Part shown: positions 11,299-50,060 of the stretch, piece by piece
Layout of the letters: every line of letters starts with the position of its first letter
How positions within the stretch are numbered: position 1 is the first letter of the stretch
NCBI GenBank assembly: GCA_903858815.1
Contig: CAIOKE010000243.1
Location: forward strand, 1-64,000
DNA from: an uncultured Planctomycetaceae bacterium
GTDB lineage: Bacteria; Planctomycetota; Planctomycetia; Planctomycetales; Planctomycetaceae
DNA: 64,000 nt
Reading direction: 5' to 3'
Program-made: the position numbers and the translations under genes
Notes under the pieces: generated by a model
Database searches by the model: none
Told to the model about the DNA's origin: nothing
Seen by the model: only the letters and a program-made list of their open reading frames with translations

Positions 11299-11403
11299 AG
11301 TGGTATCGACAGTTTCTACGGTTGGTAAGCCACGAGCAGTCAGGCTCGCAGCAGGGAGTTGTCAGGCGTTTTCAGGAACTCAGGGAATATCCCCCGGCAG
11401 GCA

Positions 11404-11435: not shown

Positions 11436-11461
11436 TTCTGTGCCGTGTGTGACGAGGTTGA

Positions 11462-13495: not shown

Positions 13496-13562
13496 GGAAA
13501 TTCCTGGAGAGTGAAGTTTCAGTGACAGAGACCTGGACGTGGAGCGAGCGTGAGAAGGAGAT

Positions 13563-14525: not shown

Positions 14526-14914
14526 CAGTGAACAGCTCCTGTGATTCTGCCCGGCAGTGTCCGACGTCGGCCGGCGGGGGAGAGGGGGTGGTAATTGAAG
14601 TGGTTGAGTGGCTGCTGGCCGGATTCTGGTGTGCTGAGGCTTCGAAGGCAACTGTTTCCTGTGGCGTTTTCTGATGTGTCGAGGTGGATCTGATCTTGGC
14701 AAAATGCGAAAAATCGCGATGATATGTCATGCGTCAGTCGGCAGAGAGCGTGTTGGGCGCAGCGGGCTGTGCAGGATCAGAGGCAGAACAAAAGTCAACA
14801 AAAATGCGATCCGAATTCGCCAGTTACGGCATTTCCTCGCGTTTTTGCGTGTTTTCGGGCTGATATGGAGTTGTCAGTGCCGGTGAAACGGGCCCAGGGA
14901 CAGGGTGGGGAGAC
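14526..14914. other. Divergent intergenic region
   Basis: This 389-base gap separates the minus-strand dehydrogenase from the plus-strand gene at 14915 and should hold both promoters. A possible plus-strand promoter has -35 TTGGCA at 14696-14701 and -10 GATGAT at 14718-14723 (16-base spacer). A small dyad GCGA-AAAA-TCGC lies in the spacer at 14706-14717. No gene is seen. Confidence 0.35.
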
Positions 14915-31563: not shown

Positions 31564-32002
31564 ATTTTGTCTCAGGCTGTGAAGAAATCTTGCGCTGGAC
31601 TGCGGACCGATCGTTCTATTATGCCTTCAAACCCCGATTGTCCCCCCTCGTTTCGGGAATCTTTCCAATTTTTGCAGACCCTCACGCGAGAATTGTGGGT
31701 TTGAGAGCGAAGGAAGCTGGGGGATCCAGGCAGAAAAACCGGGGTAATAGTCAACTCAGTAGTCCGTAATTCGGTCTGCTGTTTGATTGGCTTAGTCGCC
31801 ACTGTCTGTTCGGGCGGTGTTGGTTGGCCCATCTGTACACGTGTTTTCCCCTGGTATCCTCGTCAGGACCTTCACTTTCGCGGGCAGCTGCTCTCGGTCC
31901 GGGGGATTCCCCGGGTTCTGGTCATGCTGGCTGGCAGAGAACGCGAAGAATAGCAGGATGTACCCAAGCCTGTGTGAGTGTACATTTGTAACGGATCTGA
32001 TT
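31564..32002. other. Divergent control region of the EF-hand gene and the secretion locus
   Basis: A 439-base gap that should carry promoters in both directions. A small hairpin with CCGGGG/CCCCGG arms lies at 31899-31914, and an 8-base palindrome ACACGTGT at 31837-31844. I found no convincing -35/-10 pair. In-frame codons upstream of 32003 exist but do not look like coding sequence. Confidence 0.4.
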
Positions 32003-35000
32003 ATGCGACCTGGATGGAATATTCCCGTGAGCAGTATGTTTCTGGTGATGCGTCGGGCCTGTCTGTGTGGCGGGCTGCTGGCGATGTGGGTGCTGGCGTC
32101 CTCGGCCGTTCAGGCTCAGGGCCAGACTCGCGCTGGTTCCGAGGCTGACTTGCTGCGTCGCGACGAGGTGCAGCAGGAGCTTGGGCTTTCCGAGACACAG
32201 AAGACACAGCTGTCGGAAGTGGCGGCTGCCGGGAATCCTGGCCGTGAGGTATTTGATCCATTTTTGCAGCGGATGAAGGATGAGAAGGACGAGGCGGCGC
32301 GGACGAAGATCCGTGAGGAGATGCAGGCGGCGATAGTGGCTGCCAAGGAGGGTGTTTCCGGGAAGGCTCTGGCATTGCTGGACAGTCGGCAGCTGAAGTT
32401 GTTGCGTACGATTTACATCCGCGAGGCTGGTGTGCGTGCTCTGTCGGATGCTCGGGTATCAGCCGATCTGGGGCTGACGGCCGAGCAGAAGAAGCAGTTG
32501 GAGACATTATCTGCAGAGCGTCGGGAGGCTTCGGCGGCGTTGGGCTTTAACGCGACTGAAGAGCAGCGGGCAGAGTTTACAAAGCAGTGGGACGACAAGT
32601 ATCAGGCGGTCCTGACGGCCGAGCAGAAAGCGAAGTGGACAGAGCAGGCGGGGCCACCGGCGGTAGCTGTTGCGGCAGTTCCCGGGGCAGTTCCGGCTGC
32701 TGGTTCACCGGTTGTGTCGGGTGCAGCGGCCTATGATCCTCAGGCTCAGGGCATGGCTCCTCCGGGTGCCGTCGTGGTGTCCAGTTTTGGGGCAGCAGCG
32801 GTACCGGGTGAGCGGGCAGAGAAGCTGTCTTTCAACATGCGTTACGCTCCGTGGGATCAGGTGCTGCAGGACTTTGCGGCAGCGGGTGGCTACACGCTGG
32901 ACATTACTCAGTTGCCCACCGGCACGTTTACTCACATCGATTCTGCGGAGTACACCATTTCGCAGGCGATGGACATCATCAATGGTTATCTGCAGCGGAA
33001 GGGATACACGCTGGTTGTAAAGGACAACTTCCTTGTCTGCGTGAACGTGGACAAGACGATTCCGCCCAATCTGATTCGTGATATTTCGCTGGATGATCTG
33101 CTGAAGGTTGACAGTGGCGCGCGGGTGATTGGTGAGAACGAAATTGTGCGTATTGAGATTCCGCTGGAGAAGCTGGACGTTGGCGTGATGGCTCAGGAGG
33201 TTGAGCAGTTGCTGGGACCTCTTGGCACCATGACTGCGTTTACTCAGTCCGGGACTCTGATAATCGCTGACACGGGTGCCAATCTGCGGCGGATCAAGAG
33301 TTACGTGGATTCTGCTCTGGGTCGCATGGAGGACGAGCTGGTGTTCAAGTCTTATTACCTTGAGCACATTGCGGTTGAAGAGGCTGAGTTCATGCTGTTA
33401 GCGCAATTCGGCATGCGTCAGGGTGTGACCAACGTCAGTGCTGGCGGTGGTGGTGACCGTCGTGGTGGTCCGCCGCAGGCTCAAACACCAGCTCGAACCA
33501 GTACTCTGCAGGTCTTCTCGGATACTCGCACCAACAGTCTGCTGGTGACAGCTTCTCCGGATCAGCAGAAACTTGTGGAAGAGATCGTGAAGACGCTGGA
33601 TGTTGACAAGGACCCAAAGGGAAATCCTCTGGACGGCACAGATCGTCGTGGTCCTTATCTGAAGGTTTACAAGGTGTCCGGGCGTGCCGACCAGGTGGCT
33701 CAGAGTATTGACGCGATGATGCCTGGTGTTGTTGTGAATGAGGACGGTCAGGCCGGGACTGTGCACATCTTTGGCACGACCAAGCAGCACGATCAGATTT
33801 CTGAATGGGTGAAGTCGTTCAGCGAGGGGACTGGTTCCGGCGGGTCGGTGGCGGTGATTCCACTGGTGAAGATGGACCCGCTGACAGCAGCGGCAACTTT
33901 GCGGAACCTGTTCATTGCCGAGGGCAATGCGGCTCCGACTGTGGAGACCGATCTTTATGGTAACCGGATTATCGTGAAGGGCACGGCGGCTCAGGTGGAG
34001 CAGATTCGTCAGGTCCTGCGTGATCTTGGGGAAGAGGGGACGGGGGTCCGCACGAAGGGTGAGGGCGGTCCGATTCGTCGTTATTCACTGCGTGGTCGAG
34101 ATCCGGCTGAATTCTTTGAGTATCTGCAGAAGGAGTGGCAGGCCTCGGAGAAGTCCAGCATTCGCATCGTGGTTCCGGCAAAGAGTGGTCCGATTCGTGA
34201 CCTGAAGACTCCTTCGGGTTCACTGGATGGCGAAAAGTCTGCTCCTGAGGCTCCGGCCCCGGGTACGACCGGCGAGCAGCCGACGACGACCTATCATGGC
34301 CGTCGCGGCGCTGCGGGAGCAATTCGCAAAGAGACGTTTTATTATCCGGTTCGTCAGGAGGCTTCAGCAGCGCCACCGTTGCCGGCGCGTCCGGCTGCTC
34401 AGGACGAGTCAGTCGCTGGTGCTCAGGACATTCAGATTGTGGTGGACGGGGACGACCTGCTGCTGCTGTCGAAGGATGAGGATGCACTGGATCGTCTGGA
34501 AGAGATGATGGATTTTCTTCAGGAGTCCATTCCGTTCAGGACTCGCTGGACCGTGTTTTATCTGCAGGCCTCAGATGCCACGGAGACAGCCGGCTTGCTG
34601 GAGCAGTTGATTCCCAGCAGCAGTGTCACCAGCACTGCTGCGGATTCGTCATTCAGTCTGAGTTCCATGTTCAGTCCGATTACTCAGTCGGTCTCCAGCA
34701 TGACGGGTCTGTCGGGGCTGGGCGCGAATCCTCAGACGCTGCGAATCATTCCGGATCCGCGAGCCAACTGTTTGTACATCACTGGTCCGCAGGCTGCGGT
34801 TGACGAAGCTGAGTCGTTGCTGCGGGTGCTGGATTCCAATGAAATGCCTGAATCACTGCGTGAATTGCAGCCGCGGCGTCTGGCGATTCAGCATGCTGAT
34901 GTGGACGAAGTGGTGACGATTGTGAATGACGCCTTCAAGCCCTATATGGAACCTGCGGGTGGGCGTGGTCAGCAGAACAATCCGCTGGCTGCGATGTTTG

Positions 35001-35593
35001 GCGGTGGTGCTGGCGGTGGCCGGGGTGCTCGCAATGAACCCACGGGTGTGCAGATGACTGTGGCCGTGGATCGACAGAACAGCACGTTGATTATTTCCAG
35101 CAGCGAGGCTTTGTTTCAGAAGGTGAAGTCGCTGGTGGACGAAGTGGACCAGACGGCTCAACAGGCGAATCGCACGGTGCGTGTCGTGCAGTTGCAGCAT
35201 TCCGATGCAGCGACTGTGCAGCGTTCACTGACCAGTTTGTTTCCTCGCGTGACCACCAGTTCGACTCGACCTTCCACCTCGTCTTCTTCTTCATCCGGTG
35301 GTTCTGGGAGTGCCGGATCGAATGCTCCGGGAAGTCCGGGCCCGCAGGCTCAGGATCCGATTCAGCAGATGATGATGGATCGCATGCGGCAGCGTGGTGG
35401 TGACAGTGGCGGTGGCCGAGGCGGCTTCAGTCCATTTGGTGGTGGCGGAGGCAGCCCATTTGGTGGTGGTGGTGGCAGTCCATTCGGCGGTGGCGGTAGT
35501 CCGTTTGGTGGTGGCGGTAGTCCGTTTGGTGGTGGACGAGGTGGTTTCGGTGGGGGTGGCTTTGGAGGTCGTGGCGGCGGCGGTGGCCGTTGA
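32003..35593 (+). CDS. Secretin N-domain protein (GspD-like) without visible barrel
   Basis: About 1196 residues, exported (RRACLCGGLLAMWVLASSAVQA). Residues about 45-215 are helical with two LTxxQ-like turns (LGLSETQKTQL, LGLTAEQKKQL), as in Spy/CpxP-type proteins. An N0/STN-like domain follows at about 274-350 (MRYAPWDQVLQDFAAAGGYTL). Several NolW-like N-domains come next, each with DTRTNSLLV/DPRANCLYI/DRQNSTLII strands. The end (from about 1130) is Gly/Phe/Ser-Pro repeats. The secretin barrel signature (VPxLGxIPxLGxLF) is not found. Starts at 32003, 32036 and 32048 are all possible. It heads the type II secretion locus and should work in the periplasm. Confidence 0.8.
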   Translation: MRPGWNIPVSSMFLVMRRACLCGGLLAMWVLASSAVQAQGQTRAGSEADLLRRDEVQQELGLSETQKTQLSEVAAAGNPGREVFDPFLQRMKDEKDEAARTKIREEMQAAIVAAKEGVSGKALALLDSRQLKLLRTIYIREAGVRALSDARVSADLGLTAEQKKQLETLSAERREASAALGFNATEEQRAEFTKQWDDKYQAVLTAEQKAKWTEQAGPPAVAVAAVPGAVPAAGSPVVSGAAAYDPQAQGMAPPGAVVVSSFGAAAVPGERAEKLSFNMRYAPWDQVLQDFAAAGGYTLDITQLPTGTFTHIDSAEYTISQAMDIINGYLQRKGYTLVVKDNFLVCVNVDKTIPPNLIRDISLDDLLKVDSGARVIGENEIVRIEIPLEKLDVGVMAQEVEQLLGPLGTMTAFTQSGTLIIADTGANLRRIKSYVDSALGRMEDELVFKSYYLEHIAVEEAEFMLLAQFGMRQGVTNVSAGGGGDRRGGPPQAQTPARTSTLQVFSDTRTNSLLVTASPDQQKLVEEIVKTLDVDKDPKGNPLDGTDRRGPYLKVYKVSGRADQVAQSIDAMMPGVVVNEDGQAGTVHIFGTTKQHDQISEWVKSFSEGTGSGGSVAVIPLVKMDPLTAAATLRNLFIAEGNAAPTVETDLYGNRIIVKGTAAQVEQIRQVLRDLGEEGTGVRTKGEGGPIRRYSLRGRDPAEFFEYLQKEWQASEKSSIRIVVPAKSGPIRDLKTPSGSLDGEKSAPEAPAPGTTGEQPTTTYHGRRGAAGAIRKETFYYPVRQEASAAPPLPARPAAQDESVAGAQDIQIVVDGDDLLLLSKDEDALDRLEEMMDFLQESIPFRTRWTVFYLQASDATETAGLLEQLIPSSSVTSTAADSSFSLSSMFSPITQSVSSMTGLSGLGANPQTLRIIPDPRANCLYITGPQAAVDEAESLLRVLDSNEMPESLRELQPRRLAIQHADVDEVVTIVNDAFKPYMEPAGGRGQQNNPLAAMFGGGAGGGRGARNEPTGVQMTVAVDRQNSTLIISSSEALFQKVKSLVDEVDQTAQQANRTVRVVQLQHSDAATVQRSLTSLFPRVTTSSTRPSTSSSSSSGGSGSAGSNAPGSPGPQAQDPIQQMMMDRMRQRGGDSGGGRGGFSPFGGGGGSPFGGGGGSPFGGGGSPFGGGGSPFGGGRGGFGGGGFGGRGGGGGR
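35433..35550 (+). repeat. In-gene repeats coding Ser-Pro-Phe-Gly4-5 units
   Basis: About five imperfect 24-27-base units at the 3' end of the GspD-like gene, coding SPFGGGG-type blocks. The last units are nearly identical in DNA, so the tract may vary in length between strains. Confidence 0.7.
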
Positions 35594-35643: not shown

Positions 35644-37329
35644 ATGGAACTTGGGCAACTGCTTATCAGTGAAGGTCTGGTGACTCGCGAGCAGGTCACT
35701 GCTGCTCGGGAAGCGCATGGTGGTTCGCGCATTGATCAGGCGCTGATCCGGATTGGTGCGGTCACAGAGGACCGGCTGTTGCGGACGTTGTCTGAGGAGT
35801 TCGGGATTCCGTATGTGGACCTGAAGGAGATCCAGGTTGATACGGATCTGCTGGCGAAGTTTCCGACATCGTCGATTTATCGCCATTCGCTGTTGCCGTT
35901 GTATCGTCAGAACGGCCATGTGGTGGTGGCCACTGCAGATCCTCTGAATCTTGAGGGCCTGGACGAGCTCAGTACGGTCAGTGGTTTCCGTCTGTCCCCG
36001 GTGTTGACTCGCAGTAGTGAGCTGGGCAGTCGGATTCACGAGCTGCTGGGTGTGGGTGGTGACACGATCAATGAGCTTGTGCGGCGTAAGGCTGACGAGG
36101 GCATTGAGCTGCTTGAGGAGATCAACGAGGACTTTGGCGAGCTGGCCGAGGGGGCTCAGGCCCCATCAGTGATCAAGCTCGTGAACGAGCTGTTGATGGA
36201 AGCGGTTAAGCTGCAGACCAGTGACGTGCATATCGAGCCGCAGGAAAACGGCATGCGTGTGCGTTTCCGTCTGGACGGTATGCTGCGCATCCAGCCGACT
36301 CCGCCTGAGATTGCTCAGTTTTATTCGGCGATTGTGACGCGTCTAAAGATCATGTCGCATCTGAATATTGCTGAGAAGAGACTGCCTCAGGACGGGCGTA
36401 TCAAGCTGAGAGTCTCCGGGCGTGAGGTGGACGTTCGCGTTTCGATCATTCCGATGCTGCATGGAGAAGGCGTGGTGATGCGTCTTCTGGATAAGGCGCG
36501 GATGACGTTTGATCTGAAAAACGTGGGGATGCCGCCTACGGTGATGAAGATATTTCGGCAGCTGATTGACCTGCCGCACGGCATCATTCTGGTGACAGGT
36601 CCGACGGGCAGCGGTAAGTCAACCACGCTCTATAGTGCTCTGAGTGAGATCAAGGATCCGACTGTGAAGATCATCACAGTCGAGGATCCGGTTGAGTATC
36701 AGATGGACGGGATCAGTCAGATTCAGGTTCACAGTCGAATTGGGTTGACCTTTGCTGCCGGTCTTCGCAGTATTCTGCGTCATGACCCTGACGTGGTTTT
36801 GATCGGTGAAATTCGTGACGGCGAGACGGCGCAGGCGGCCATTCAGGCGTCGCTGACGGGTCACCTCGTTTTCAGTACTCTGCACACCAACGATGCCCCC
36901 AGCGCATTTACTCGACTGGTCGACATGGGTGTTGAGCCGTATCTGGTGGCCAGTACGGTGGAGGGCATTCTTGCTCAGCGACTTGTGCGTCGTCTGTGTC
37001 AGCACTGCAAGGTGGCTGTGCCACTGGAACGTGCGGATCTGCCGGCCGATTTTCCGCGGGATCTGTGTGCAGTGGTGTATGAGCCGAAAGGGTGTCGTGA
37101 GTGTCGTGATACGGGTTATGCGGGGCGAATCGGGGTGTTTGAGCTGTTGCGAACGGATGCGACGGTGCAGCGGATGTGTGTGGAGCAGAAGAGCAGCACA
37201 GAAATTCGTGACTATGCCCTGAAGGCCGGGATGACGACCTTGCGGAGTAGTGGCTGGGAGCAGGTTGCGGCTGGTGTAACGAGTGTGGATGAAGTGGTTC
37301 GGCTGACGCGTGGTGATATTGTGGGCTGA
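35644..37329 (+). CDS. gspE: Type II secretion/type IV pilus assembly ATPase GspE
   Basis: A 561-residue hexameric ATPase that powers pseudopilus assembly at the inner membrane. It has a GspE N-terminal domain ([18 protein letters not shown]), Walker [10 protein letters not shown] at about 319-327, an Asp box EDPVEYQ, Walker [14 protein letters not shown] and the His box [13 protein letters not shown]. The C-terminal zinc-finger Cys are CQHC at about 452-455 and CREC further on. Full length. It follows the GspD-like gene by 50 bases and precedes gspF. Confidence 0.95.
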
Positions 37330-37390: not shown

Positions 37391-38599
37391 ATGCCAGACT
37401 TCAGGTATCAGGCAAGAGAATTGTCCGGAAAGCAGGTTTCCGGAGTGCTGACGGCGACCAGTGAGAAGGACGCCCTGTCCGTGCTGGCATCGCGCAGTCT
37501 GTTTCCGATCAGTGTGGCTTTGACAGCGCAGTCGAAGCAGCAGGCCACTGCTGGTTCGCGACGTGTTCCGACACGATTTCTGACGATCTTTTACAATCAA
37601 TTGTCCGACCTGTTGAAGTCCGGCGTGCCGTTGCTGCGTTCCCTGCAGCTGCTGGAAGAACAGACCTCGAATCCGATCCTGCGATCTGTGGTGCAGGATG
37701 TTCGAGAGCAGGTGGCTGATGGAACTCGGCTGAACGATGCGATGCGGCGTCATCCGAAGTCCTTCAACTTTCTTTCGATCAGTATGGTGAAGGCTGGTGA
37801 AGAGGGTGGGTTTCTGGAGGAGGTATTAAGTCGCATCGCGGTCTTCAACGAGCATCAGGAGGAGTTGCGTGGTCGGGTGACGGGTGCGATGGTGTACCCG
37901 ATGTTCCTGATGATTGTGGGGTTGGGCATTGTCACGGTGATGATGATCTTTTTCGTGCCTGAATTCGCTTCGATGTTTGAGCGTATGAAGGACCAGGGGA
38001 CTCTGCCGTGGGCCACGACGACATTGCTTGCGATCAGTGATCTGATTCAGCAGCGCGGTGCTTTACTGGCGCTGGCAGCAGCGGGAGTGATTGCGGGGAT
38101 CATTTGGTACTTCGGGACTCCGGAGGGGGCTCGCAACCTTGACCGTCTGAAACTGCGTTTGCCTGGTCTGGGCGGGATTCTGCAGAGTCTTGCGGTGGCG
38201 AGATTCTGTCGCATGCTGGGGACCCTGCTGAAAAACGGAGTACCAATTCTGCAGTCGCTGCGGATTGCCAAGGATGCCAGTGGCAATGTGATTCTGTCGG
38301 ATGCGATTGGAAATGCGGCGGAGAACGTGAGCAGTGGTCAATCGCTGGCTGTGCCGTTGCGTGCCTGTGGTCAGTTTTCTCGTGACCTGATTGAAATGAT
38401 TGCTGTGGGTGAGGAAGCGAACAATCTGGAGAACGTGCTGATCAATGTGGCGGACAATCTGGAAAAGCGGACCAGTCGAAAGATTGACATGGTGGTGCGT
38501 CTGCTGGAACCGATGCTGTTACTGGTAATGGCGACAATTGTGACGTTTGTGATTGCGGCTCTGCTGCTGCCTGTTTTGAATATGTCAGCGAACCGGTAG
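37391..38599 (+). CDS. gspF: Type II secretion inner-membrane platform protein GspF
   Basis: A 402-residue polytopic protein with two homologous GspF/PilC domains. Both domains carry the FxxxLxxLLxxGVPLLxxL type signature (FYNQLSDLLKSGVPLLRSLQ and CRMLGTLLKNGVPILQSLR), each followed by a Gly-rich turn with membrane helices at about 170-195, 220-240 and 375-400. It anchors the ATPase and interacts with the pseudopilins. Length and order within the locus are normal. Confidence 0.93.
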   Translation: MPDFRYQARELSGKQVSGVLTATSEKDALSVLASRSLFPISVALTAQSKQQATAGSRRVPTRFLTIFYNQLSDLLKSGVPLLRSLQLLEEQTSNPILRSVVQDVREQVADGTRLNDAMRRHPKSFNFLSISMVKAGEEGGFLEEVLSRIAVFNEHQEELRGRVTGAMVYPMFLMIVGLGIVTVMMIFFVPEFASMFERMKDQGTLPWATTTLLAISDLIQQRGALLALAAAGVIAGIIWYFGTPEGARNLDRLKLRLPGLGGILQSLAVARFCRMLGTLLKNGVPILQSLRIAKDASGNVILSDAIGNAAENVSSGQSLAVPLRACGQFSRDLIEMIAVGEEANNLENVLINVADNLEKRTSRKIDMVVRLLEPMLLLVMATIVTFVIAALLLPVLNMSANR

Positions 38600-38718: not shown

Positions 38719-39219
38719 ATGAAAAGGCTGAATCGAAATTCGCTGAACTGTGGTGGGAGTCGTCGTTCGCGACGTGCTGGGTTTACTCTGCTGGAACTGC
38801 TGATTGTGCTGGCAATCATTGTGGTGATTGCGGCGATGGTGGTGCCGAACCTGATTGGCAGCCAGCAGAAGGCCAACGAGGATGTGACTCTGGCAACAAT
38901 CAAAAGTATCGAGAAAAGTCCTGTGGGCACGTGGGCAGCAGACCATGACGGTGCCTATCTGAAGGCCAGTGGTCAGGAGGCATGGCAGCAGATGATGAAT
39001 CCGCAGGCTTACAAAGGGCGGAAGCTGCGACCTTACATTGAAGAGCCGCCGTTGGATGCGTGGGGGCGACCGTTGCAGTATGAGTGGAATGGTGACGGTC
39101 ACAGTAAGAAACAGAATGCTTTGAAGCCTGCCATCTGGTCGACTGGAGCCAATGGTCAGGACGAGGGTGGCGAGGGCGACGACATTCCCAGCTGGAAAAC
39201 TCTGGCTGCCACACAGTGA
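38719..39219 (+). CDS. gspG: Major pseudopilin GspG
   Basis: A 166-residue pseudopilin with prepilin peptidase site G/FTLLELLIVLAIIVVIAAMV (Glu at +5). The C-terminal half carries the GspG pattern PPLDAWGRPLQYEW and an acidic loop before SWK that corresponds to the calcium site of GspG family members. GGAAG lies about 13 bases upstream of the ATG. It is the main subunit of the periplasmic pseudopilus. A gap of 119 bases separates it from gspF. Confidence 0.93.
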   Translation: MKRLNRNSLNCGGSRRSRRAGFTLLELLIVLAIIVVIAAMVVPNLIGSQQKANEDVTLATIKSIEKSPVGTWAADHDGAYLKASGQEAWQQMMNPQAYKGRKLRPYIEEPPLDAWGRPLQYEWNGDGHSKKQNALKPAIWSTGANGQDEGGEGDDIPSWKTLAATQ

Positions 39220-40001: not shown

Positions 40002-40456
40002 TGCGTACTGAATCCGGCGTGCGAGGCAGGGGGTGTGTTGGCAGCGTTTCTGATCGCCGTGGTCTGTCGCTTCTGGAAGTTTTGATTTCGGTGGCGGTGT
40101 TCATGGGGGCCATGACGGCCATTATGTTTGCATTAAGCGTGGGCCAGCGTGCCGAAGTGTCAGCACGCCTGCAATCTGAAGCGGTGTTGCGCTGTGAGTC
40201 CGTGATGGGGGAGATTGTGGCGGGTGCCGCGGAAGCGGTGTCGTCAGCGGACAATCCGTTTTTTGATGACGAGACAGGCACATGGTACTGGACGTCTGAA
40301 GTGACAACGGGCGGGGCCAGTGGCCTGCTGCAGGTGTCTGTGACGGTCGAGCATCGTCCGGATATGGATGGCGAACCGAATGCTGCGTTTCGCCTGATCC
40401 GATATATGCGTGATCCGCAGTTGTTCCTGGATGCTGCAATCGAGGGGGGCGGCTAA
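40001..40456 (+). CDS. gspI: Minor pseudopilin GspI-like
   Basis: About 151 residues with a 21-residue leader and site G/LSLLEVLISVAVFMGAMTAI (Leu at +1, Glu at +5). The stem ends in RLQSEAVLRCESVMGEIVAG, the GspI-type pattern (helix followed by a cross-strand domain with VSVTVEH). ATG 40001 overlaps the gspH stop, and its own TAA overlaps the ATG of gspJ, so the three are translationally coupled. Confidence 0.82.
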   Translation: MRTESGVRGRGCVGSVSDRRGLSLLEVLISVAVFMGAMTAIMFALSVGQRAEVSARLQSEAVLRCESVMGEIVAGAAEAVSSADNPFFDDETGTWYWTSEVTTGGASGLLQVSVTVEHRPDMDGEPNAAFRLIRYMRDPQLFLDAAIEGGG

Positions 40457-41526
40457 TGAAGACTGTGCCCTGCCCTGCCTGTGCTCGCAATGCTGCGGGC
40501 TTTACTTTATTTGAGCTGTTAATAGCAGTGGGACTGACGTCACTGCTGATGGCGGCTCTGTATTCCGCGATGAGTACGTATTTCGAACTGCAATTGGACA
40601 GTCACGAAGAGATTGCTCGTCAGCAGGTGGCCCGAGCGGTGCTGCGGCAGATGACTCGTGACATTCAGTCGATTGTGTTTGCGAAGCAGGAGGTGTTACC
40701 TGAGGACGAGGAGAGTTCCGGCACTGGTGCGGGGCTGAATGGTTCCGGTACCAGCGGGTTGAGCGGGTCGGGCACCAGTGGTCTGTCAGGTTCGGGCACG
40801 TCGGGACTGAATGGTGCGGCTGGGGGAGCGACTGGCGGTACGGGAGCGACTGGAGGAGCCGGTTCCGGGTCGTCATCATCTTCAACATCAACAACGTCCA
40901 GTGGTGACCTGGATGGTAACGCGTATGGTGAATCGACGATTGATCCGGAGACTGTGTCGACAACCTACACCAGTGGGCTCGTTGGTACCGCGACAGATCT
41001 GCAGCTGTTTGTGAGTCGGCCTGATCCCAGTCTGTCGTATGTGTCATCACAGGAATTAGCAACGCTGGACCAGCGGACTGGCGATCTGGTGATTATCCGT
41101 TATCTGATGGCGGACAAGCAGGGGGCTGGTTTAGGGTCAGAGATAGCTGACCGTGAGGCTCCGGGGCAGGACGATGGTCCGGTCGGATTAGCGAGAATGT
41201 CGGGGGATTTGTACGGTTTAAGCACAGCCGTTGAGAATTCTGAGGAAAGTCCCCAGTTGGCTGCTGCGAAGTTACTGGCTCGTGAGGTTGCGGCCGTGCA
41301 ATTTCGTTATTTTGACGGGATTGCGTGGCAGGAGGAGTGGGACAGTACGGCGTTGAATGCCTTACCGAAGGCGATTGAGATAGTGCTGACGGTGCGTGAC
41401 GAGGAGCAGGCTGCGAATGCTTCGTTTCTGGACGAGCCGGATCCTTATGCCCTGCCGTCCACGACTCATCGTGTGGTTGTACCGATTCCGGTTGCTGAGC
41501 CAGTTGTAGCGGAGCAGGTCCTGTGA
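40456..41526 (+). CDS. gspJ: Minor pseudopilin GspJ-like with Gly/Ser repeat insert
   Basis: A 356-residue protein, longer than usual GspJ (about 200). It has the site G/FTLFELLIAVGLTSLLMAAL and the helix QQVARAVLRQMTRDIQSIVF, followed by an about 60-residue low-complexity insert of GSGTSGLS units and a Ser/Thr run (about 94-155). The globular GspJ-like domain then resumes with LLAREVAAVQFRYFDGIAWQEEWDS and ALPKAIEIVLTV. The latter two are characteristic GspJ strands. Confidence 0.85.
   Translation: MKTVPCPACARNAAGFTLFELLIAVGLTSLLMAALYSAMSTYFELQLDSHEEIARQQVARAVLRQMTRDIQSIVFAKQEVLPEDEESSGTGAGLNGSGTSGLSGSGTSGLSGSGTSGLNGAAGGATGGTGATGGAGSGSSSSSTSTTSSGDLDGNAYGESTIDPETVSTTYTSGLVGTATDLQLFVSRPDPSLSYVSSQELATLDQRTGDLVIIRYLMADKQGAGLGSEIADREAPGQDDGPVGLARMSGDLYGLSTAVENSEESPQLAAAKLLAREVAAVQFRYFDGIAWQEEWDSTALNALPKAIEIVLTVRDEEQAANASFLDEPDPYALPSTTHRVVVPIPVAEPVVAEQVL
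40735..40815 (+). repeat. 24-base tandem repeat in gspJ
   Basis: About three imperfect 24-base units coding an eight-residue GSGTSGL(S/N) block. It lies in the insert between the pilin helix and the globular domain. Confidence 0.7.
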
Positions 41527-43163
41527 GACGATTCTCTGCAGACAGCGGGTGGAAATCTCAGCATCGCCGTGGCTTTGTGCTGCTGGTGGTGACTGTGGTC
41601 GTGATTCTGTTGTCTCTGGCGGCGTACAGTTATCTGGGAGAGATGGACACAGAGAACCGTGCGGCGGGGATGTTTGGTCGTGATGTCGAGGCTCGGATGG
41701 CGGCGGAGTCCGGCGTCGAGTATGTGGCTGCCCAGATTGGACTGCGGCAGACAGACGCGACTCTGGATCTTTACGATGATGCTTCGATGTTCAGTCGTCA
41801 GCCGATTGGTGGTGGTGGTGAGGCGCGTGGGCAGGTCCGATTTTCAGTGCTCAGCCCCAGCATGGTGGGGGCCTTCGATTCGCTGCCACGTGCGGGTCTG
41901 ACGACCGAAACAGCTCGCTTCAATGTGAATCGTCTGCTGGAACTGGAGAACGACACGGATGACACGACTGATCCGTATACGGCAGTCAGTTTCATTCCGA
42001 ACATGTCGGAAGACATCTGCAATGCGATACTTGACTGGATTGATTCGGACGAGGAAGCGCGGGCTGGTGGTGCTGAATCCAGCACGTATGAGGCGCTGGC
42101 GGTTCCGTATTCGGCGCGTAATGCGCCGATGCAGTCGATTGATGAACTGCTGCAGGTGCAGGGGGTAACTCCGCAGTTATTCTACGGCGAGGATGCGAAT
42201 CGTAATGGTCAGCTGGATCCGAATGAAGATGATGGTGGTGAAAGTGCGCCTGCGGATGATCAGGACGGGGTGCTTGATTTTGGTCTGCGTGACTATCTGA
42301 CGGTTTCCAGCCGCGAGCGAAACATTCAGACGACGGGTGAGAAGAAGATCAACATCAACAACGGGATCGTCGCTGAGATGTTTGATTTTCTGGAGGAGTC
42401 ATTTGATACGGAAACGGCCACGTTTGTGACGGGGTATCGCCTGACGGGAGATCAGCAGGCGGATGCTCAGGCTCAGGGGAAGCTGACAATCGAGCAGCAG
42501 CAGCTGGTGGACTGGATCGCGAAGAATCTGGCGAATGGTGAGCTTGGGAAAGTGACACGAGGTGGCATGGATCTGTCGAATCCTCCGCAGGCATCGTTTC
42601 GTTCGATCTATGACCTGATTGACGCTCAGGTGGCGGTGACGGTGGATGGTTCCGATCAGACTTTGAATAGTCCGTGGTCATCAACTGATCCGGCGGGTTT
42701 GATGGAGCAGATGCTGTTGCTGGAGGAGAAGCTGACGTGGTTGAACGACGAGTTCATTGATGGTCGGATCAACGTGAACATTGCTCCGCGTGAGGTGCTG
42801 CTGGCGATTCCGGACATGACGGAGACGATTGCGGATGCCATTCTGGGGGCTCGACCACCGGCTGGCGAGAATTCCGTGCAGGCGGCGCAGGTGATGTCGT
42901 TACGCCGATCACCGGTCTGGTTGCTGACGGAAGGGCTGGTGGATGTACCGACTTTCAAGCGGCTGGGACCGTGGCTGACTACGACGGGGGACGTGTATTC
43001 ATTTCAGGTTTTGGGGCATTTTGATCAGGGCGGTCCGACGACTCGACTTGAAGCCATGGTAGACGGGACGAAGAAGCCGCCGCGGATTGTTTTTCAGCGT
43101 GATCTGACGGGTCTGGGGCGTGGGTTTGCGCCAGCGGTTCTTGATGGGGTGGTGGACGAGTGA
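41523..43163 (+). CDS. gspK: Minor pseudopilin GspK-like
   Basis: A 546-residue protein. The leader ends in RRG/FVLLVVTVVVILLSLAAYSYL, without Glu at +5, as is usual for GspK. AESGVEYVAAQIGL follows the stem. A large alpha-helical domain contains SEDICNAILDWIDSDEEARAGGAE and a helix-hairpin-like PMQSIDELLQVQGV. A canonical EF-hand-like loop DANRNGQLDPNE (about 224-235) is inserted, and the protein is longer than typical GspK (about 320). It starts at GTG, overlapping the gspJ stop (GTGA). Confidence 0.85.
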   Translation: MRRFSADSGWKSQHRRGFVLLVVTVVVILLSLAAYSYLGEMDTENRAAGMFGRDVEARMAAESGVEYVAAQIGLRQTDATLDLYDDASMFSRQPIGGGGEARGQVRFSVLSPSMVGAFDSLPRAGLTTETARFNVNRLLELENDTDDTTDPYTAVSFIPNMSEDICNAILDWIDSDEEARAGGAESSTYEALAVPYSARNAPMQSIDELLQVQGVTPQLFYGEDANRNGQLDPNEDDGGESAPADDQDGVLDFGLRDYLTVSSRERNIQTTGEKKININNGIVAEMFDFLEESFDTETATFVTGYRLTGDQQADAQAQGKLTIEQQQLVDWIAKNLANGELGKVTRGGMDLSNPPQASFRSIYDLIDAQVAVTVDGSDQTLNSPWSSTDPAGLMEQMLLLEEKLTWLNDEFIDGRINVNIAPREVLLAIPDMTETIADAILGARPPAGENSVQAAQVMSLRRSPVWLLTEGLVDVPTFKRLGPWLTTTGDVYSFQVLGHFDQGGPTTRLEAMVDGTKKPPRIVFQRDLTGLGRGFAPAVLDGVVDE

Positions 43164-43341
43164 CGGGGGTGTGGCGTCTGCAGTGATCCGCTGTAATCGT
43201 CATATCCGCGCCAGGCGATGCATTCTCCATCCGGCTGGTTGTTGGGTGGCTGGATTTTGCTGTGAATCGGTGTCGGCAGTCGGATGGTGGTGTTGATTGC
43301 TGTAGTTTTGAGGATTGACAGAATCCGGAAGAGTAACGGCC

Positions 43342-44814
43342 ATGTCAGAGATCATCATTGAGTGGGATCGCGAGCGTTTGCTGGTGATTCAGGGTCAAGT
43401 TGTCGGGCGGCGGGTCGAGCTGAGTCTTGCTGAGGAGTTGCCGCGCGGTGAGAACTCTGAAGACACGCTCGAAATTGTGCAGCGTCTGCGACAGTTATTC
43501 CCGAGTGGTTCGGACAAACGTCGTTTGTCGGCGACGGTGGTCTTTCCGCGTCAGCAGGTGACGGTGCATCGGATTCAGCTGCCCCCGGTACCTGATACGG
43601 AAGTTCCGGACCTGTTGAAGATGCAGGCGGCTTTGAAGCTGACGGTTCCGGTGGACACAGTGGCGATGGATTTCACTCCACTGCCAATGCAGTCCTCTGC
43701 GGTGACTCGTGATGTGCTGCTGGTGACGGTGCCGAATGATCAGTTGGCTCTGGTTCGCCGAACTCTGGGCGATGCCGGGCTGGAACTGTCCGAGGCGCGT
43801 GTCAGTGGCTACTGTGTGGCGCAGTTGCTGGAGTCGGCGGGACTGTTGCGTGAGGGCCCTGAGGGAACTCGCGTCGATATTGTGGCGGTCATGCGGGCAG
43901 ACTTTCTGGAACTGACCTTTCTTCGTGGTCGTGAAGTTCTGTTTTCGCATAGTGGTGCATCGTGGTCGGCGGCTGATGCGATTGAGCGTACTCTGCGTTC
44001 GGAACTGTCGCGTGCGCGGATGTCGGCTGCGGACGTGCTGGGTGATCAGCAGATTGGTCGTATCGTGCTGCTGGGGGCTCATGAAATCACGGCAGCAGTC
44101 ACTGATCAATTGTCTGCTCGATTTGACGGTGCGACGATCGAGCGAGTGGATCCAGCGGTGCTGGTCGCGTCGGCTGGTGATGTATTAGTGACTGATATGG
44201 CAGCAGCGGCTGGTGCGCTACTGTCGCGTCAGAGCAGCAGTGTGCAGACGATTGATTTTGTGAATCCGCGACGTGCACCGGAAAAACGGGATCTGCGACG
44301 AGTCAAGGTGTTGGGTGGGGCGCTGGCGGCTGTGGTACTGTTTGCAGGTATCTGGAGCTACCGCCAGGGAAGGATAGCCGATCTGACTGGGCAAAAGGCG
44401 CGCTGGGATGCGGATAACGCAGAGATTCGTGAACGGCTGCAGGCTGGCGAAAAGGACCTTGAGTGGGCTGACAAAATTGGTCGGTGGGTCGATCGTGATG
44501 TGGAATGGCTGGATGAAGTTGATCGTCTGCGGCAGCTGATGCCTGGGACTGATCGAATGTTTGTGGATAACTTTACGTTTTCGACGGTCCAGCAGGGTGG
44601 TGTGGGACTGATGCGATTTGATGCGTGGGCGAAGTCAGAGGCAGAGATTAACGATTTCGGACGTCGATTGGCAGAGGCTGGATACCGCGTGAAGCCCTAT
44701 GAGACGGATGTGCGTCCGGCGGCGGTATCGCAGGAGTATCAGATCAAGGTGACGATGGAACTTGTGCTGCCGGAGGGGCGAGAGGACGCGGGGGCTGCTG
44801 AAACCGCATCCTGA
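43342..44814 (+). CDS. gspL: GspL-like protein (PilM/PilN-type fusion)
   Basis: About 490 residues. The cytoplasmic part (1-320) has the actin-like PilM/GspL pattern, with RRLSATVVFPRQQVTVHRIQ and LKMQAALKLTVPVDTVAMD. One membrane helix follows (VLGGALAAVVLFAGIWSY). A coiled stretch and a small periplasmic ferredoxin-like domain (MRFDAWAKSEAEINDF) correspond to PilN/GspL. It links the ATPase to the periplasmic GspM-like subunit. ATG 43342 is preferred; an upstream start at 43315 is less likely. A 178-base gap follows gspK. Confidence 0.82.
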   Translation: MSEIIIEWDRERLLVIQGQVVGRRVELSLAEELPRGENSEDTLEIVQRLRQLFPSGSDKRRLSATVVFPRQQVTVHRIQLPPVPDTEVPDLLKMQAALKLTVPVDTVAMDFTPLPMQSSAVTRDVLLVTVPNDQLALVRRTLGDAGLELSEARVSGYCVAQLLESAGLLREGPEGTRVDIVAVMRADFLELTFLRGREVLFSHSGASWSAADAIERTLRSELSRARMSAADVLGDQQIGRIVLLGAHEITAAVTDQLSARFDGATIERVDPAVLVASAGDVLVTDMAAAAGALLSRQSSSVQTIDFVNPRRAPEKRDLRRVKVLGGALAAVVLFAGIWSYRQGRIADLTGQKARWDADNAEIRERLQAGEKDLEWADKIGRWVDRDVEWLDEVDRLRQLMPGTDRMFVDNFTFSTVQQGGVGLMRFDAWAKSEAEINDFGRRLAEAGYRVKPYETDVRPAAVSQEYQIKVTMELVLPEGREDAGAAETAS

Positions 44815-44877
44815 AAGGGACGCTGCTGGCGGAGCCTTGGTGTGTGAAGCATGGTGTCAGTTGGGAAAGTCTGGGCG

Positions 44878-46875
44878 ATGGACGAGCAGAAACGTACAAA
44901 ATTGCTGGCAGCTGGTCTGGGAACCGTGGTCGCCGTGTACTTCGGCCAATCCGTTGTATCCAGCTGGGTGATGGGGCCGATCAGAGACCTTGAGCGCAAG
45001 GTTGCGTCTGCCGAGAGTCAGGCGGAGAAGCTGGCGGATGACGAAATTCAGCTCAATGTGGCTCAGCGTAATCTGAAGGACTGGAAACAAATCAGTCTGC
45101 CGGGTGACATTGATACGGCACAGCGTCTGTATCGTGAATGGGTCTTTGATCTGGCAAGGCAGTGCGGATTTTCGGGTTCTGGTTTTGAAGTCGTTCCGGG
45201 GGCTCGTTCCGCGCAGAAAGAGTTCAGCACGGTGAGCGTGGAGGTAAAGAAGGCGGAAGTTGACCTGCAGGGGCTGGCACGATTCCTGTACCTGTTTGAT
45301 CAGTCAGCACTTCTGCAGCGGATCAGTGGGGTCAAAATTGACAGCCCGGGAGCCACGGGAAACCCGCGTTTGAGTGTGACTTTGACAGCCGAGGGGATGA
45401 GTGTTACGGGAACGGACAATCGGGCGGAACTACTGCCGCGGACGCAGTTGACCGGGGCAATTGATGAGAAGGCTTTGCTGCTGAAGGCGGTTGCAAGCGA
45501 ACAGTTTCCCGCAGAGGCAGAGGGTTTTGAGCCGTTCCTTGTTCGATTGGATCGCGAGCTGGTACGGGTGACAGAAGTTTCAGAGGCGGGCTGGAAGATC
45601 GAACGCGGTTTTGCTGGCACAAAGCCTGCGGCTCATGTTGATAAGTCGATTGTGGAGTTATTTCCTGTGCTGTGGGATCGCAGCACGCGACGAATCGAAG
45701 ATTTTCAGGCCCTTGTTCAGGCGTCGCCGTTTGTGCTGCCGGCAGCACCGAAATCCTACAGTCCTCGTGTGGCTGGGGTTTCCGACAAGACGATCCGACC
45801 GGGTGAGTCTGTCAGTCTGACAGCGAAGCTGGACAACGCCGATCCTGAACTTGGTGCAGCGGCTTTTGCTCTGGAGGATGCAGCCGAGGGGATGGCGATC
45901 GATGCGGCAACCGGGCAGTTCACGTGGATGCCGGCAGAGGCATTGGCGCCCGGGAAATACTCGGCGGTCGTAGCCGCTGTGCAGTCTGGAAATCCTGCGC
46001 AGAAAATCAGTTCAAAGCTGACCATCACAATTCAGGAACAGAATGCTGCTCCGAAAATTTCACTGCAGCAGGCTGCCGTTGTCGTTCTGGGGCGTGAATT
46101 CAGTGCTCAGGCGTCGGCCACGGATGATGGTCCGCTGGACTCTTTGAAGTACAGTCTTGGCGGGGGGGCTCCGGAAGGACTGGGAATTGATGCTCGCACC
46201 GGTCTGCTGAAGTGGACACCGGCCCGATCATTTACACCGGGTAAGTACGACGTGACAGTAAACGTGACGGATGGTGGTCGTGAAGCAAAGTCAGCGACGG
46301 CGAAGATTTCATTGGATGTGCAGGATGATTTCGCGGCGATGACCACACTGACAGGGACAGTGTCCCGTGATGGTACGTGGTTCGCGTGGCTGCGAAACCG
46401 TGCTACGGGTGTGACATTGAAGATGAAGGCCGGTGAGACGGTCAGGATTTCTGAAATCGCTGCCGAGATCACCGAGATTACGGCTCGTTATGTACGGCTG
46501 AAGGATTCCGCCGGTATCTGGAAACTGGCGCTGGGTGGGGCTCTGCGAGATCGCGTCCTTGAGACTCCGGCTGAACCACAGGCTGAGGCAGTCAAGTCTG
46601 TGCCGAGTGCTGAAGGAGCGGCGCCAGCGACGGCGCCGGCAGCACCCGCTGCAGCACCTGGTGCGACACCTGAAACGCCGGCTCCTGTACCTGCTGAGGC
46701 GCCTGCTGCTGCGGTGCCCCCTGCTGAACCAGCTCCTGTGACGCCACCAGCTCCTGTGACGCCACCAACTCCGGACTCCGGTGCTGAACCAGTCCCGCAA
46801 CCGGCTGCAGAACCCCAACCGGCTTCAGAACCAACTCCGACAGCACCAGCCACCGGGGCGGCCGTCAGCAGTTGA
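44878..46875 (+). CDS. GspM/PilO-like protein with Ig-like, GspC/PilP-like and Pro/Ala-rich regions
   Basis: About 665 residues against about 160-200 for GspM. A membrane helix lies at about 10-30. A coiled stretch and PilO/GspM-like domain follow (to about 190), then a short beta module with GWKIERGFAGTKPAAH. Two Ig/cadherin-like domains come next (about 292-385 and 388-480; FTWMPAEALAPGKYSAVV and LKWTPARSFTPGKYDVTV). A segment at about 487-560 (LTGTV...AWL...ITARYVRLKDSAGIWKLALG) resembles the homology region of GspC/PilP. The tail (562-665) is Pro/Ala/Glu-rich. ATG 44878 is preferred; 44851 is possible. Last gene of the locus. The GspC-like call is inference. Confidence 0.75.
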   Translation: MDEQKRTKLLAAGLGTVVAVYFGQSVVSSWVMGPIRDLERKVASAESQAEKLADDEIQLNVAQRNLKDWKQISLPGDIDTAQRLYREWVFDLARQCGFSGSGFEVVPGARSAQKEFSTVSVEVKKAEVDLQGLARFLYLFDQSALLQRISGVKIDSPGATGNPRLSVTLTAEGMSVTGTDNRAELLPRTQLTGAIDEKALLLKAVASEQFPAEAEGFEPFLVRLDRELVRVTEVSEAGWKIERGFAGTKPAAHVDKSIVELFPVLWDRSTRRIEDFQALVQASPFVLPAAPKSYSPRVAGVSDKTIRPGESVSLTAKLDNADPELGAAAFALEDAAEGMAIDAATGQFTWMPAEALAPGKYSAVVAAVQSGNPAQKISSKLTITIQEQNAAPKISLQQAAVVVLGREFSAQASATDDGPLDSLKYSLGGGAPEGLGIDARTGLLKWTPARSFTPGKYDVTVNVTDGGREAKSATAKISLDVQDDFAAMTTLTGTVSRDGTWFAWLRNRATGVTLKMKAGETVRISEIAAEITEITARYVRLKDSAGIWKLALGGALRDRVLETPAEPQAEAVKSVPSAEGAAPATAPAAPAAAPGATPETPAPVPAEAPAAAVPPAEPAPVTPPAPVTPPTPDSGAEPVPQPAAEPQPASEPTPTAPATGAAVSS

Positions 46876-46901: not shown

Positions 46902-49900
46902 TCAGTTGGTGTTCAGTGATTGTGTGGCAGGTATGAGCAGCGGTTGGTCATCGGGGTCTTCACCGTCTGAGCTGAGTGGCTGCGTTTTCATGCGGTGTGC
47001 CAGGACCTGATCGCGGTAGTCGCGAAGGGGAACAATCAGCGCTTCATTGATGTAGCGACGGCGATGCAGAAAGTCGCTGCTGCTGACTCCAATCTGTCCT
47101 GCCAGTTCCTGCATCTGATCCAGTGCAAGGTTGCTGATTCGCACTGACTGATCAACATCATTCTGCACTCGCACGGCTGACTTCGGTTCCCATGCGGTGC
47201 GTGCTTCCCAGCGTTCGATCAGTTTCTGCAGCAGTCCGTTGAGCTGATCGAATCGTTCGGATGGCTGTTGTACAAGTTCTGGTTGCCGCACCAGCTGATC
47301 GAGAGCCGTAATCACGGGCCGGACGGATGCATCTGAGGCTGCAGCAAAGAAGACGATATGCAGTCGGTGCTGTAATTCTTCTGCGGGTGCCGGGTGGTTC
47401 AACAGTTCGTGGAGTCGCACGATTTCGTAGTGTGAGAAGTGGCCCATCAGGGGATCACCTGAGCGAGCGAATCGCACGAGTCTGCGGACCAGTTCCAGCG
47501 CGGTCTGCTGATCGCTGGCGGCTGCCATCAGAGCGGCACCAAGTGTTCTGAAATACTGCTGTCGCTCTTCATCAAGTGGGTGTGACACTCGAATGATGCG
47601 CCCATTCTCGACTTTCTCCAGTGGTGGCCGCGGATGCTGCTGCATTTCCATTCTGAGTGATCTGCGATAGGTCCATGGCTGATCGGGCATACCGGCAAGG
47701 ATTTCGATCTGCTGGGCCAGTGAGGAGAGCCGGCGTTTGGCCTCATGATGGGCTTCGGTCACGGGCAGTGCGGAGGCCAGCTGTTTCTGCCACGGTGCAA
47801 ACGCCAGACGCAGCTCCTCTGCCTTATCGGCGATACGTGCTGCTTCTGCCGGCCAGTTCAGAGTGGTCTGTGCTGTGGATGCCGAGAGTGGCAGCGGACG
47901 GGATTCGCGACTGAACAATCCGATCGGGTCTGCTGCGTCTGCCAGTGGCAATACGGCCACCTGTGCCCAGTCCCAACCGCTCAGCATCAGTTCTGTTCGG
48001 ACGTGTTCTTTCTGCAGCCGATCCAGCAGTCCTGGGCTGATCAGGCCTTTTTCAGAAGTGCCGGCCAGCAGGATGATTTCACCGGGGACCGTCTGAATGG
48101 CTCCACTGGCAGGAAATACGCTGCTGAGCGTGGCGAGGCATTCACGGAGCGGTTCCGGTCCAAGATCCCGACCTCGGAATCGCTGGGCAAAAACGCCATC
48201 AGCCGTGAGTACGGCTCGGACAGCCGTATAGAACTCTTTGTTATAGAGCGACGCTGTGGATGCTGCTGATGCCGGCGGACCCGTGCAGACAACGACATCG
48301 AGGCTCTGTGGTCGGGCACTTCGAACTGCCAGCTCAATGGGCTTATGTTCAATCCGGACTCGAGCGTCATCCGTTGGTTTTTGCGGACTGTTGTTCCAGA
48401 CGTGGGCAGCGGCCAGCTGTGTCAGTTGTGAGTCCTGTCGGACAGCAAGGATCTGCTGGACCGGAAAGTGTGTGCTGCAGCGAAGTGCGGCTCCGGAATC
48501 ATCGCCCAGCAGCATCACCTGCCCGGGCTGCGGGTGATTGCAGATGGCCAGTATCAGTGGCAGTACATCTTCCGGTGGCTGTGGGGTCGTGTCGGGGCTG
48601 GAACTGACGGCTCCCTGAGAGATTCCATTGCGACGGAATTCGATGATATTGCCACCCAGTTTCCAGACGGCCACTTCGCCCACGGATGTCACTCGTGTTT
48701 CCACCAGTCGGCCCGGTGCGGACTGCGGTATCAGTTCCGGAGCGACATTGTGCTGCAGAGCTACGCGAGTGCGTTCTGAGAACATCAGTCGGGACAACGG
48801 GGCTGTCTGTGGACTGCCCAGTGTGGTGGCCAGTACGACAGTTACAGTAATCACGGCAAGGTGCATACGAGGAAACGGGCGGGGGCGAAGCTCGACAGCA
48901 GTCGCTTTCGTGAAACTGCCCTCTGGTCGAGTGAACATGGTCAGACTTGCGAGCAGGGTTGCTGCGATCTGCAACTGGCCTGTGGCTTGAAGCAGCAGAC
49001 CGCTGCTGAGTGCGATTATCGCACCGCCGGTGATTCCGCAGACGACGAGCAGCGTAGTCGGCTGACTGGGGTGACGCTGGCAGGATGCCAGTGCGATGGC
49101 GAGTGGAATTCCTGAAATGCTGAGTAACGTGGCCAGTTCGAAGAGTACGAGCCAGTTCAGTCCGGTGGTGGCCGTGTACATCATGTTCAGGCGAACCAGC
49201 GCTGAAAAGCTCAGTGGTGCCAGCAGCAGTACGGCTGGGGCTACCAGTTTCAGCAGCAGTCGCATACCTGGAGCAAATCTCAGAAACGGGCAGAAGGCAG
49301 CGAGAAGGCAGAGTGCCAGTGCTGCAGTGGTGCAGAGCAGAGGCAGAGAAAGCTGAGCGAAGATGTGGCTGGCGCGGAGTGCAGAGACGATGGCAATTCC
49401 CGTGACGACTGCTGTGGACAGCAGTTGCAGAACACTCTGCTGGGGCAGAGCTGCAGTTGAAGGAGACGTGGCTGGTCTGGTGGCAGAGAAGAAAATGAGA
49501 GTCAGGGCCAGCAGTCCGGTGGTGGCGGCAGCGGTCTCGGGATTGACAGAGAGTACAGAGCAGGTGGCGGTCAGCAGGCCGGCCAGCGCGATACCGGAGG
49601 TGCGATATTGTGTGCCCAATTCCGCCATCGTGAATTGCAGCCACGCAGCGATCGGCACCGTGGCGATAGCAACAACTGCTGCCGGCAGCAGGAAAGCGCA
49701 GAATCCGGAAACGAAGGACGATCCCCGGAACGACTCCGCGCCCACATTCAGAATTTCCGGCAGGATGTGCGGCATCGAAAAAGTCGCGAGCATTGTGGAA
49801 CCGAAGAGTGCTGCGGCGAGGGTAAATGCTGAGATTCCGGTGGCGGACCGTGTCAGAGGGCGCATTGCAAGCGTGAGCAAAAATCCCAGCAGCAGTCCGG

Positions 49901-50060
49901 TCTGAAGTGCCAGCAGCGACTGGGGGCTGGTGCCGCAGAGTGTCAGCCACACAGCGACGAGGCGACAGCAACACAGCAGTGTGACAGTCAGGCTGCTGGC
50001 TGTCAGTGCGATGGGAGGCAGAAATCGAAACGGGCGGACTGCGGGGCTGAACTGTATCAC
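46902..50060 (-). CDS. MFS/spermidine-synthase-like membrane protein
   Basis: A 1052-residue protein. Residues 1-450 hold about a dozen membrane helices. Residues about 480-720 look like a class I methyltransferase/spermidine-synthase fold (QVMLLGDDSGAALRC, LDVVVCTGP, YNKEFYTAVRAVLTADGVFAQRF). The usual GGGDGG loop is degraded to LLGDDSG. The remaining about 330 residues are helical. Fused MFS/spermidine synthase proteins are common in planctomycetes and their function is unclear. Enzyme activity is doubtful here. It is convergent with the secretion locus (26-base gap) and divergent from thrC. Confidence 0.72.
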   Translation of the reverse strand: MIQFSPAVRPFRFLPPIALTASSLTVTLLCCCRLVAVWLTLCGTSPQSLLALQTGLLLGFLLTLAMRPLTRSATGISAFTLAAALFGSTMLATFSMPHILPEILNVGAESFRGSSFVSGFCAFLLPAAVVAIATVPIAAWLQFTMAELGTQYRTSGIALAGLLTATCSVLSVNPETAAATTGLLALTLIFFSATRPATSPSTAALPQQSVLQLLSTAVVTGIAIVSALRASHIFAQLSLPLLCTTAALALCLLAAFCPFLRFAPGMRLLLKLVAPAVLLLAPLSFSALVRLNMMYTATTGLNWLVLFELATLLSISGIPLAIALASCQRHPSQPTTLLVVCGITGGAIIALSSGLLLQATGQLQIAATLLASLTMFTRPEGSFTKATAVELRPRPFPRMHLAVITVTVVLATTLGSPQTAPLSRLMFSERTRVALQHNVAPELIPQSAPGRLVETRVTSVGEVAVWKLGGNIIEFRRNGISQGAVSSSPDTTPQPPEDVLPLILAICNHPQPGQVMLLGDDSGAALRCSTHFPVQQILAVRQDSQLTQLAAAHVWNNSPQKPTDDARVRIEHKPIELAVRSARPQSLDVVVCTGPPASAASTASLYNKEFYTAVRAVLTADGVFAQRFRGRDLGPEPLRECLATLSSVFPASGAIQTVPGEIILLAGTSEKGLISPGLLDRLQKEHVRTELMLSGWDWAQVAVLPLADAADPIGLFSRESRPLPLSASTAQTTLNWPAEAARIADKAEELRLAFAPWQKQLASALPVTEAHHEAKRRLSSLAQQIEILAGMPDQPWTYRRSLRMEMQQHPRPPLEKVENGRIIRVSHPLDEERQQYFRTLGAALMAAASDQQTALELVRRLVRFARSGDPLMGHFSHYEIVRLHELLNHPAPAEELQHRLHIVFFAAASDASVRPVITALDQLVRQPELVQQPSERFDQLNGLLQKLIERWEARTAWEPKSAVRVQNDVDQSVRISNLALDQMQELAGQIGVSSSDFLHRRRYINEALIVPLRDYRDQVLAHRMKTQPLSSDGEDPDDQPLLIPATQSLNTN

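Follow-up and report, generated by a model that had tools for sequence, protein, structure and literature searches.

A candidate natural fusion of the type II secretion subunits GspM and GspC in planctomycetes

In solved complexes of the type II secretion system (T2SS), the HR domain of GspC is bound to the N0 domain of GspD (PMC3169554), and the HR domain of GspB likewise binds N0 (PMC9239104). How many copies of GspM and GspC a T2SS contains is unsettled: models set six GspCLM units against a 15-fold secretin, and twelve GspC copies have been reported in Klebsiella (PMC11981180). In type IV pili, Korotkov and colleagues noted a few PilO–PilP fusions, for example Pseudomonas putida Q88CU9, and these few served as an argument for a 1:1 ratio (PMC3169554). 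A recognisable gspC is mandatory in the T2SS detection model of PMC6668835. Neither a GspM–GspC fusion nor the planctomycete architecture described below is reported in the literature searched, which included few subscription papers, so that absence is not proven. We consider it highly likely that the gene described here encodes a natural fusion of two subunits of the T2SS inner-membrane platform, GspM and the HR part of GspC, with the origin and role proposed below.

Layout of the gene and its operon

The window, that is, the whole 64,000-nucleotide stretch of DNA analysed, is part of a 72-kb contig; the genome measures 6.39 Mb and is 99.4% complete. It contains an operon with D-like, E, F, G, H, I, J, K, L and M genes, which the fused gene ends. 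The H and I genes show weak prepilin motifs only, and the L gene is without a clear Pfam family. The members placed by Pfam family or by position are:

31817–35593 (+), D-like gene: Secretin_N repeats and a Gly-rich tail, barrel not detected
35644–37329 (+), GspE ATPase: Pfam T2SSE 5e-135, MshEN
37391–38599 (+), GspF: Pfam T2SSF 1e-60
38719–39219 (+), GspG: Pfam N_methyl, T2SSG 6e-5
40456–41526 (+), GspJ: Pfam T2SSJ 4.9e-9
41523–43163 (+), GspK: Pfam T2SSK_1st 3.6e-17
43315–44814 (+), GspL-position gene, the expected partner of the M domain: placed by position, distantly like the PilM-like Amuc_1101 family

The D-to-M order had been proposed by a sequence-only reading of this DNA, and Pfam backs it for E, F, G, J and K. 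The matches to T2SSE, T2SSF, T2SSG, T2SSJ and T2SSK_1st support an operon of T2SS type. Convergent with the fused gene lies a gene for a large membrane protein (46902–50060, −), which is hydrophobic in its N-terminal half and ends in a soluble part.

The fused gene lies directly 3′ of the GspL-position gene, as GspM does in gsp operons, and its features are:

44878–46875 (+), whole fused gene: GspM, beta module, two Ig modules, HR domain and tail; an open reading frame of 665 aa plus stop
44902–44958 (+), single TM-like segment, residues 9–27: from hydropathy, with no other segment over threshold
45109–45402 (+), PilO/GspM-like domain, residues 78–175: helix, two strands, helix, two strands in the AF2 model; profile match to PilO
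45433–45666 (+), extra small beta module, residues about 186–263: AF2 strands and orthologue alignment
45703–45753 (+), degenerate pre-HR motif FQALVQASPFVLPAAPK, residues 276–292: equivalent of Y..I..RN.F.P in the short forms and in free C genes
45754–46035 (+), Ig/cadherin-like module 1, residues about 293–386: Pfam He_PIG and fold
46036–46323 (+), Ig/cadherin-like module 2, residues about 387–482: Pfam He_PIG at 402–477 and fold
46324–46560 (+), predicted HR domain (GspC/PilP/GspB type), residues 483–561: AF2, VIA-align, Foldseek and hhalign
46561–46872 (+), Pro/Ala-rich acidic tail, residues 562–665: composition

A second in-frame ATG at 44851 would give a frame of 674 aa (44851–46875, +); the start at 44878 is backed by the orthologue alignment. 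At 665 aa, the protein is about 4.3 times as long as GspM of E. coli K-12 (153 aa; locus 5083–5544); the sequence-only reading had put it at three to four times normal size. An assembly artefact was ruled out as the source of the long frame, as full-length orthologues occur in other genomes, and because the fused architecture is conserved in relatives it is not a product of chance.

The N-terminal part of the protein is PilO/GspM-like. In the AF2 model a long helix runs from the TM-like segment to about residue 69, and the topology of residues 78–175, judged from secondary structure at a pLDDT of mostly 68–89, is of the GspM/PilO type. The top PDB match of the M-domain profile is PilO 3jc8 (E 0.0025 over 127 positions). 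Relatives match T2SSM/XpsM weakly: T2SSM was matched in 2 of 15, with a best E of 0.0019 and scores under the curated cut-offs. One fused relative matches the GspM_XpsM and then the GspC_delta models, in that order.

The middle of the protein contains the two Ig/cadherin-like modules that the sequence-only reading had described. He_PIG matches there in two stretches (1.3e-15, Pfam), and residues 293–484 fold onto cadherin pairs with Z of 10.7–11.9 in a search with the full-length model, the matches of which are to the Ig/cadherin modules and are uninformative about the M and HR regions. The Pro/Ala-rich tail, also read correctly, comprises 104 aa, of which 31 are Ala and 30 are Pro. Two features go beyond that reading, namely the beta module at about residues 186–263 and the D-like gene with its N-type repeats and no detected barrel. 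The beta module is present in the two-Ig proteins and missing from the one-Ig and short forms; a Pfam scan of it gives no match, and its pattern is FP..PF.VR...E...V......W...RG..GT...H....V.L.

The HR domain by fold and by sequence

Residues 482–565 were modelled alone with 21 relatives, giving an AF2 pLDDT of 96.2 and a pTM of 0.84. The top nine rows of a VIA-align search with this model are all GspC, PilP or GspB, at Z of 8.9–6.1, and unrelated rows reach at most 5.0. GspC 3oss leads (8.9), followed by PilP entries (8.0–6.8), GspB 4wfw (6.8) and PulC-HR 6hcg (6.1); GspC 2lnv, at 4.7, falls within the range of the unrelated rows. A VIA Z below 8 can mean a common arrangement, and the HR rows stand apart nonetheless. 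In Foldseek, four PilP entries lead with modest E-values of 0.02–0.4. On the predicted model, residues 483–561 have the HR fold of GspC, PilP and GspB, that is, the GspC/PilP small beta domain that had been suspected from strand pattern in about 75 residues of this region. The search turned up neither a fold unlike that domain here nor a separate gspC elsewhere in the genome.

The high rank of PilP entries would also suit a type IV pilus-like or other type IV filament system, in which the protein would be a PilO–PilP fusion. Such fusions exist (PMC3169554), the M profile has PilO as its top PDB match and the L gene is distantly PilM-like. However, the gene order from E to M is that of a T2SS, as are the GspK, GspJ and GspG families, and the highest fold Z belongs to GspC 3oss, though it is tied within 1 with PilP. 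We regard a pilus-type gene set as distinctly unlikely.

By sequence, membership of the HR family depends on a broad profile, because single-sequence and narrow-family searches miss GspC and PilP. Searches of the HR region against the PDB and Pfam with a single sequence or a narrow alignment gave no GspC or PilP match, hhalign with the narrow HR alignment gave no GspC signal, and the domain does not reach the Pfam gathering score (T2SSC cut-off). The controlled signal comes only from broader alignments. In hhalign, the broad planctomycete HR profile and E. coli-type GspC align over 71 columns at a score of 31.4 (probability 84%), compared with at most 17.7 for 200 column-shuffled controls and 9.9 for the reversed profile; with the free homologues removed from the HR profile, the score is 29.1 against at most 17.6 for shuffles. 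In E. coli YghF and GspC, the same broad profile picks out the HR segments. Against the PDB it matches GspC 2lnv (E 0.002), GspC 3oss (0.06) and PilP (0.09), with generic beta or repeat proteins scoring above GspC. The top-scoring designed 'Pizza' proteins were set aside as artefacts of summed repeats, as each repeat matches about 28 residues and by itself has a poor E-value.

The misses by most searches with the family alone, the generic beta folds in the PDB profile search and the local D-like protein without a barrel could together mean that the C-terminal domain shares only a small beta-sandwich fold, by convergence or because the fold is generic, and that it binds something other than a secretin, for example peptidoglycan or substrate. 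Yet the nine top fold matches are all T2SS or type IV pilus HR domains with nothing else near, the hhalign score lies above all shuffles, and free homologues occur between M and D in T2SS operons, which is the connector's place. Such a convergent or generic origin is very improbable.

Distribution and origin of the fusion

Over the whole genome, Pfam T2SSC and PilP gave no match at E up to 10, and the HR profile gave three clear domains, with the next match at E 0.14. These lie in the window protein, in a 306-aa frame on contig C238 and in a 478-aa frame on contig C326, each on an M-type protein. No separate HR-domain gene was detected in the window or in the 99.4%-complete genome, and the sequence-only reading had likewise seen no separate gspC before the D-like gene. 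Two other explanations were rejected: that GspC was lost, since the HR domain is present, and that it is encoded elsewhere in the genome, since searches with T2SSC, PilP and the HR profile gave no free gene.

The C238 and C326 proteins belong to two further T2SS-type gene sets. In the C238 set (L146, 6018–10016 (−) and 11061–14861 (+)), a barrel-less D-like gene with 11 Secretin_N stretches sits beside E, and a separate barrelled secretin gene lies nearby on the opposite strand. The C326 set (L032, L148) is split: a barrelled D and E are followed by I-J-K in the opposite orientation, and F-G-H-L-M(HR) sits elsewhere on the same contig.

The fusion was surveyed across the Planctomycetota. An alignment led by the window protein gave 24 named loci, all planctomycete and many from Planctomycetaceae. 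Profile searches of 249 genomes of the class found an HR match in 128 and an M-domain match in 176. An M domain lies upstream in the same open frame for 136 of the 150 HR matches listed (115 genomes), and the remaining 14 may be unpaired partly since the M matches listed also number 150. Among the matches listed, the spacing from M to HR clusters at about 27–71, 112–138, 288–299 and 363–365 residues, and in inspected proteins the first three of these classes correspond to no Ig module, one Ig module, and the beta module with two Ig modules. Judged by these profiles, the HR matches in the class are as a rule fused to M, with 0, 1 or 2 Ig-sized spacers in between. Pfam T2SSC, run over 294 genomes of the phylum, matches in 48 at E up to 0.1, all outside the class, and its cut-off is passed by 3 of the 294. 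In one family (f3), M proteins occur in which the HR profile detects no HR domain. One of these (L040, 9501–11255 (+); 585 aa) belongs to a full T2SS operon, and its C-terminal region is HR-like by eye and carries an insertion.

Ig/cadherin-like domains are often ligand-binding. This property, together with the absence of any PDZ domain detected by Pfam in the window protein or the relatives scanned, would fit a reading in which the protein is indeed a connector and its Ig modules serve chiefly to bind substrate, in place of the PDZ domain of classical GspC, rather than as a spacer. In GspC, substrate binding is assumed for the PDZ-type region at the C-terminus (PMC11981180). However, 48 of the 136 fused relatives among the matches listed have fewer than 60 residues between M and HR and hence no Ig module, including a short-form paralogue in the same genome. 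A substrate platform, which is compatible with an M–C fusion, seems unlikely.

In planctomycetes outside the class, a small protein of its own mostly bears the HR domain. In six loci (L098, L114, L115, L152, L158 and L159) M and a separate HR gene are adjacent, and in five of them D then follows. In two of the six, L114 and L115, the stop codon of M and the start codon of C share a four-base overlap (ATGA and GTGA). Since M, a free HR gene and, in most cases, D follow one another in other planctomycete families, M appears to have fused with its neighbour C. The free C proteins have a pre-HR motif (VERNIFS, VDKNVFS), which shorter fusions keep (ILNRNFFSP, ILQRNLFAP, IVDRNVFVA, IVSRNIFAP) and which is degenerate in the window protein (VQASPFVLP); the Ig modules sit between this motif and the HR domain. 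On these sequence comparisons, C was most likely fused to M first, with the Ig modules added later.

In another planctomycete family, L120 (8913–9989, −) encodes an M–HR fusion that looks independent. Its M domain groups with the unfused M domains of L114 and L115 in a small tree (support 0.988), and it keeps the C-terminal LERLRQ.R tail common to the L114 and L115 M proteins. Because of this grouping and the shared tail, the fusion probably arose at least twice.

Proposed role and relation to known systems

In the proposed course of events, an ancestral M gene would have joined its downstream neighbour C; the C part would have lost its own N-terminal anchor or signal and kept the pre-HR motif, and the Ig-like modules would later have been inserted between this motif and the HR domain. 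The N-terminal TM and the linker to the HR domain, a GspC trait, are missing here, and the sole TM-like segment (residues 9–27) belongs to the M part. In the protein, the N-terminal helix would anchor the chain in the inner membrane, the M domain would join GspL, the folded spacers would carry the protein across the periplasm and the HR domain would dock on the N0-type domain of a secretin. GspM and GspC would in this way be fixed at 1:1, with folded modules replacing the flexible linker of C. In this proposal a single chain would serve both as GspM and as the GspC connector, and its Ig modules would stand where GspC has that linker.

The D-like protein of the operon comprises seven Secretin_N stretches, an LTXXQ (Spy/CpxP-type) region and a Gly-rich tail. 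The secretin barrel (PF00263) was not found on the contig at E up to 1, and neither Pfam nor a single-sequence search matched N0 in the D-like protein. Seven clear barrelled secretins and one split match lie on other contigs of the same genome. The barrel-less form is full length across the genus (60–91% identity) and occurs in another family of the class, and a one-Ig relative (L125) has a barrelled D directly 3′ of the fusion gene. That the connector has moved from C onto M, as the sequence-only reading proposed, is supported; because the operon's D-like gene is without a secretin barrel, its docking partner is presumptive, and a role as connector to the secretin would call for either a secretin from another locus or a partner consisting of N domains only. 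An extension to the whole class, in which one polypeptide bridges the periplasm, locks GspM and GspC at 1:1, has its span set by 0–2 Ig modules and meets secretin-like N-domain stacks possibly apart from the barrel, is conceivable but on the whole doubtful.

A natural M–C fusion running through much of a bacterial class would be strong comparative evidence for a 1:1 ratio and offers a system for testing this stoichiometry. Surveys that require a recognisable gspC, as the model of PMC6668835 does, may miss such systems.

Among known proteins, GspM and PilO (PF04612, PF10741, NF040576, PF04350) share with the window protein the N-terminal TM, the helix, the domain topology and the place after L, whereas the window protein is about four times longer and has an HR domain and Ig modules. 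GspB/OutB (4wfw; fold match Z 6.8) is likewise an inner-membrane protein with an HR domain that binds the secretin N0, but it is free of M and has a peptidoglycan-binding C-terminal extension (PMC9239104). GspC (PF11356, NF041515; 3oss, 2lnv, 6hcg) has the HR-fold domain and belongs to the same operon type, and its free homologues in planctomycetes lie between M and D; in contrast to GspC, the window protein is without a C-type TM anchor of its own and without the PDZ or coiled-coil C-terminus of most members, and its HR domain is joined to M, preceded by Ig modules and scores below the Pfam cut-off. The PilO–PilP fusion of P. putida (Q88CU9), compared by its published description (PMC3169554), unites the homologous subunit pair in one chain and in the same order. 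PilO–PilP fusions in type IV pili were thus already known; what is new here, as far as the literature was searched, is a putative GspM–GspC fusion, which differs from the pilus case in its T2SS-type operon, its frequency across a class and its Ig spacers.
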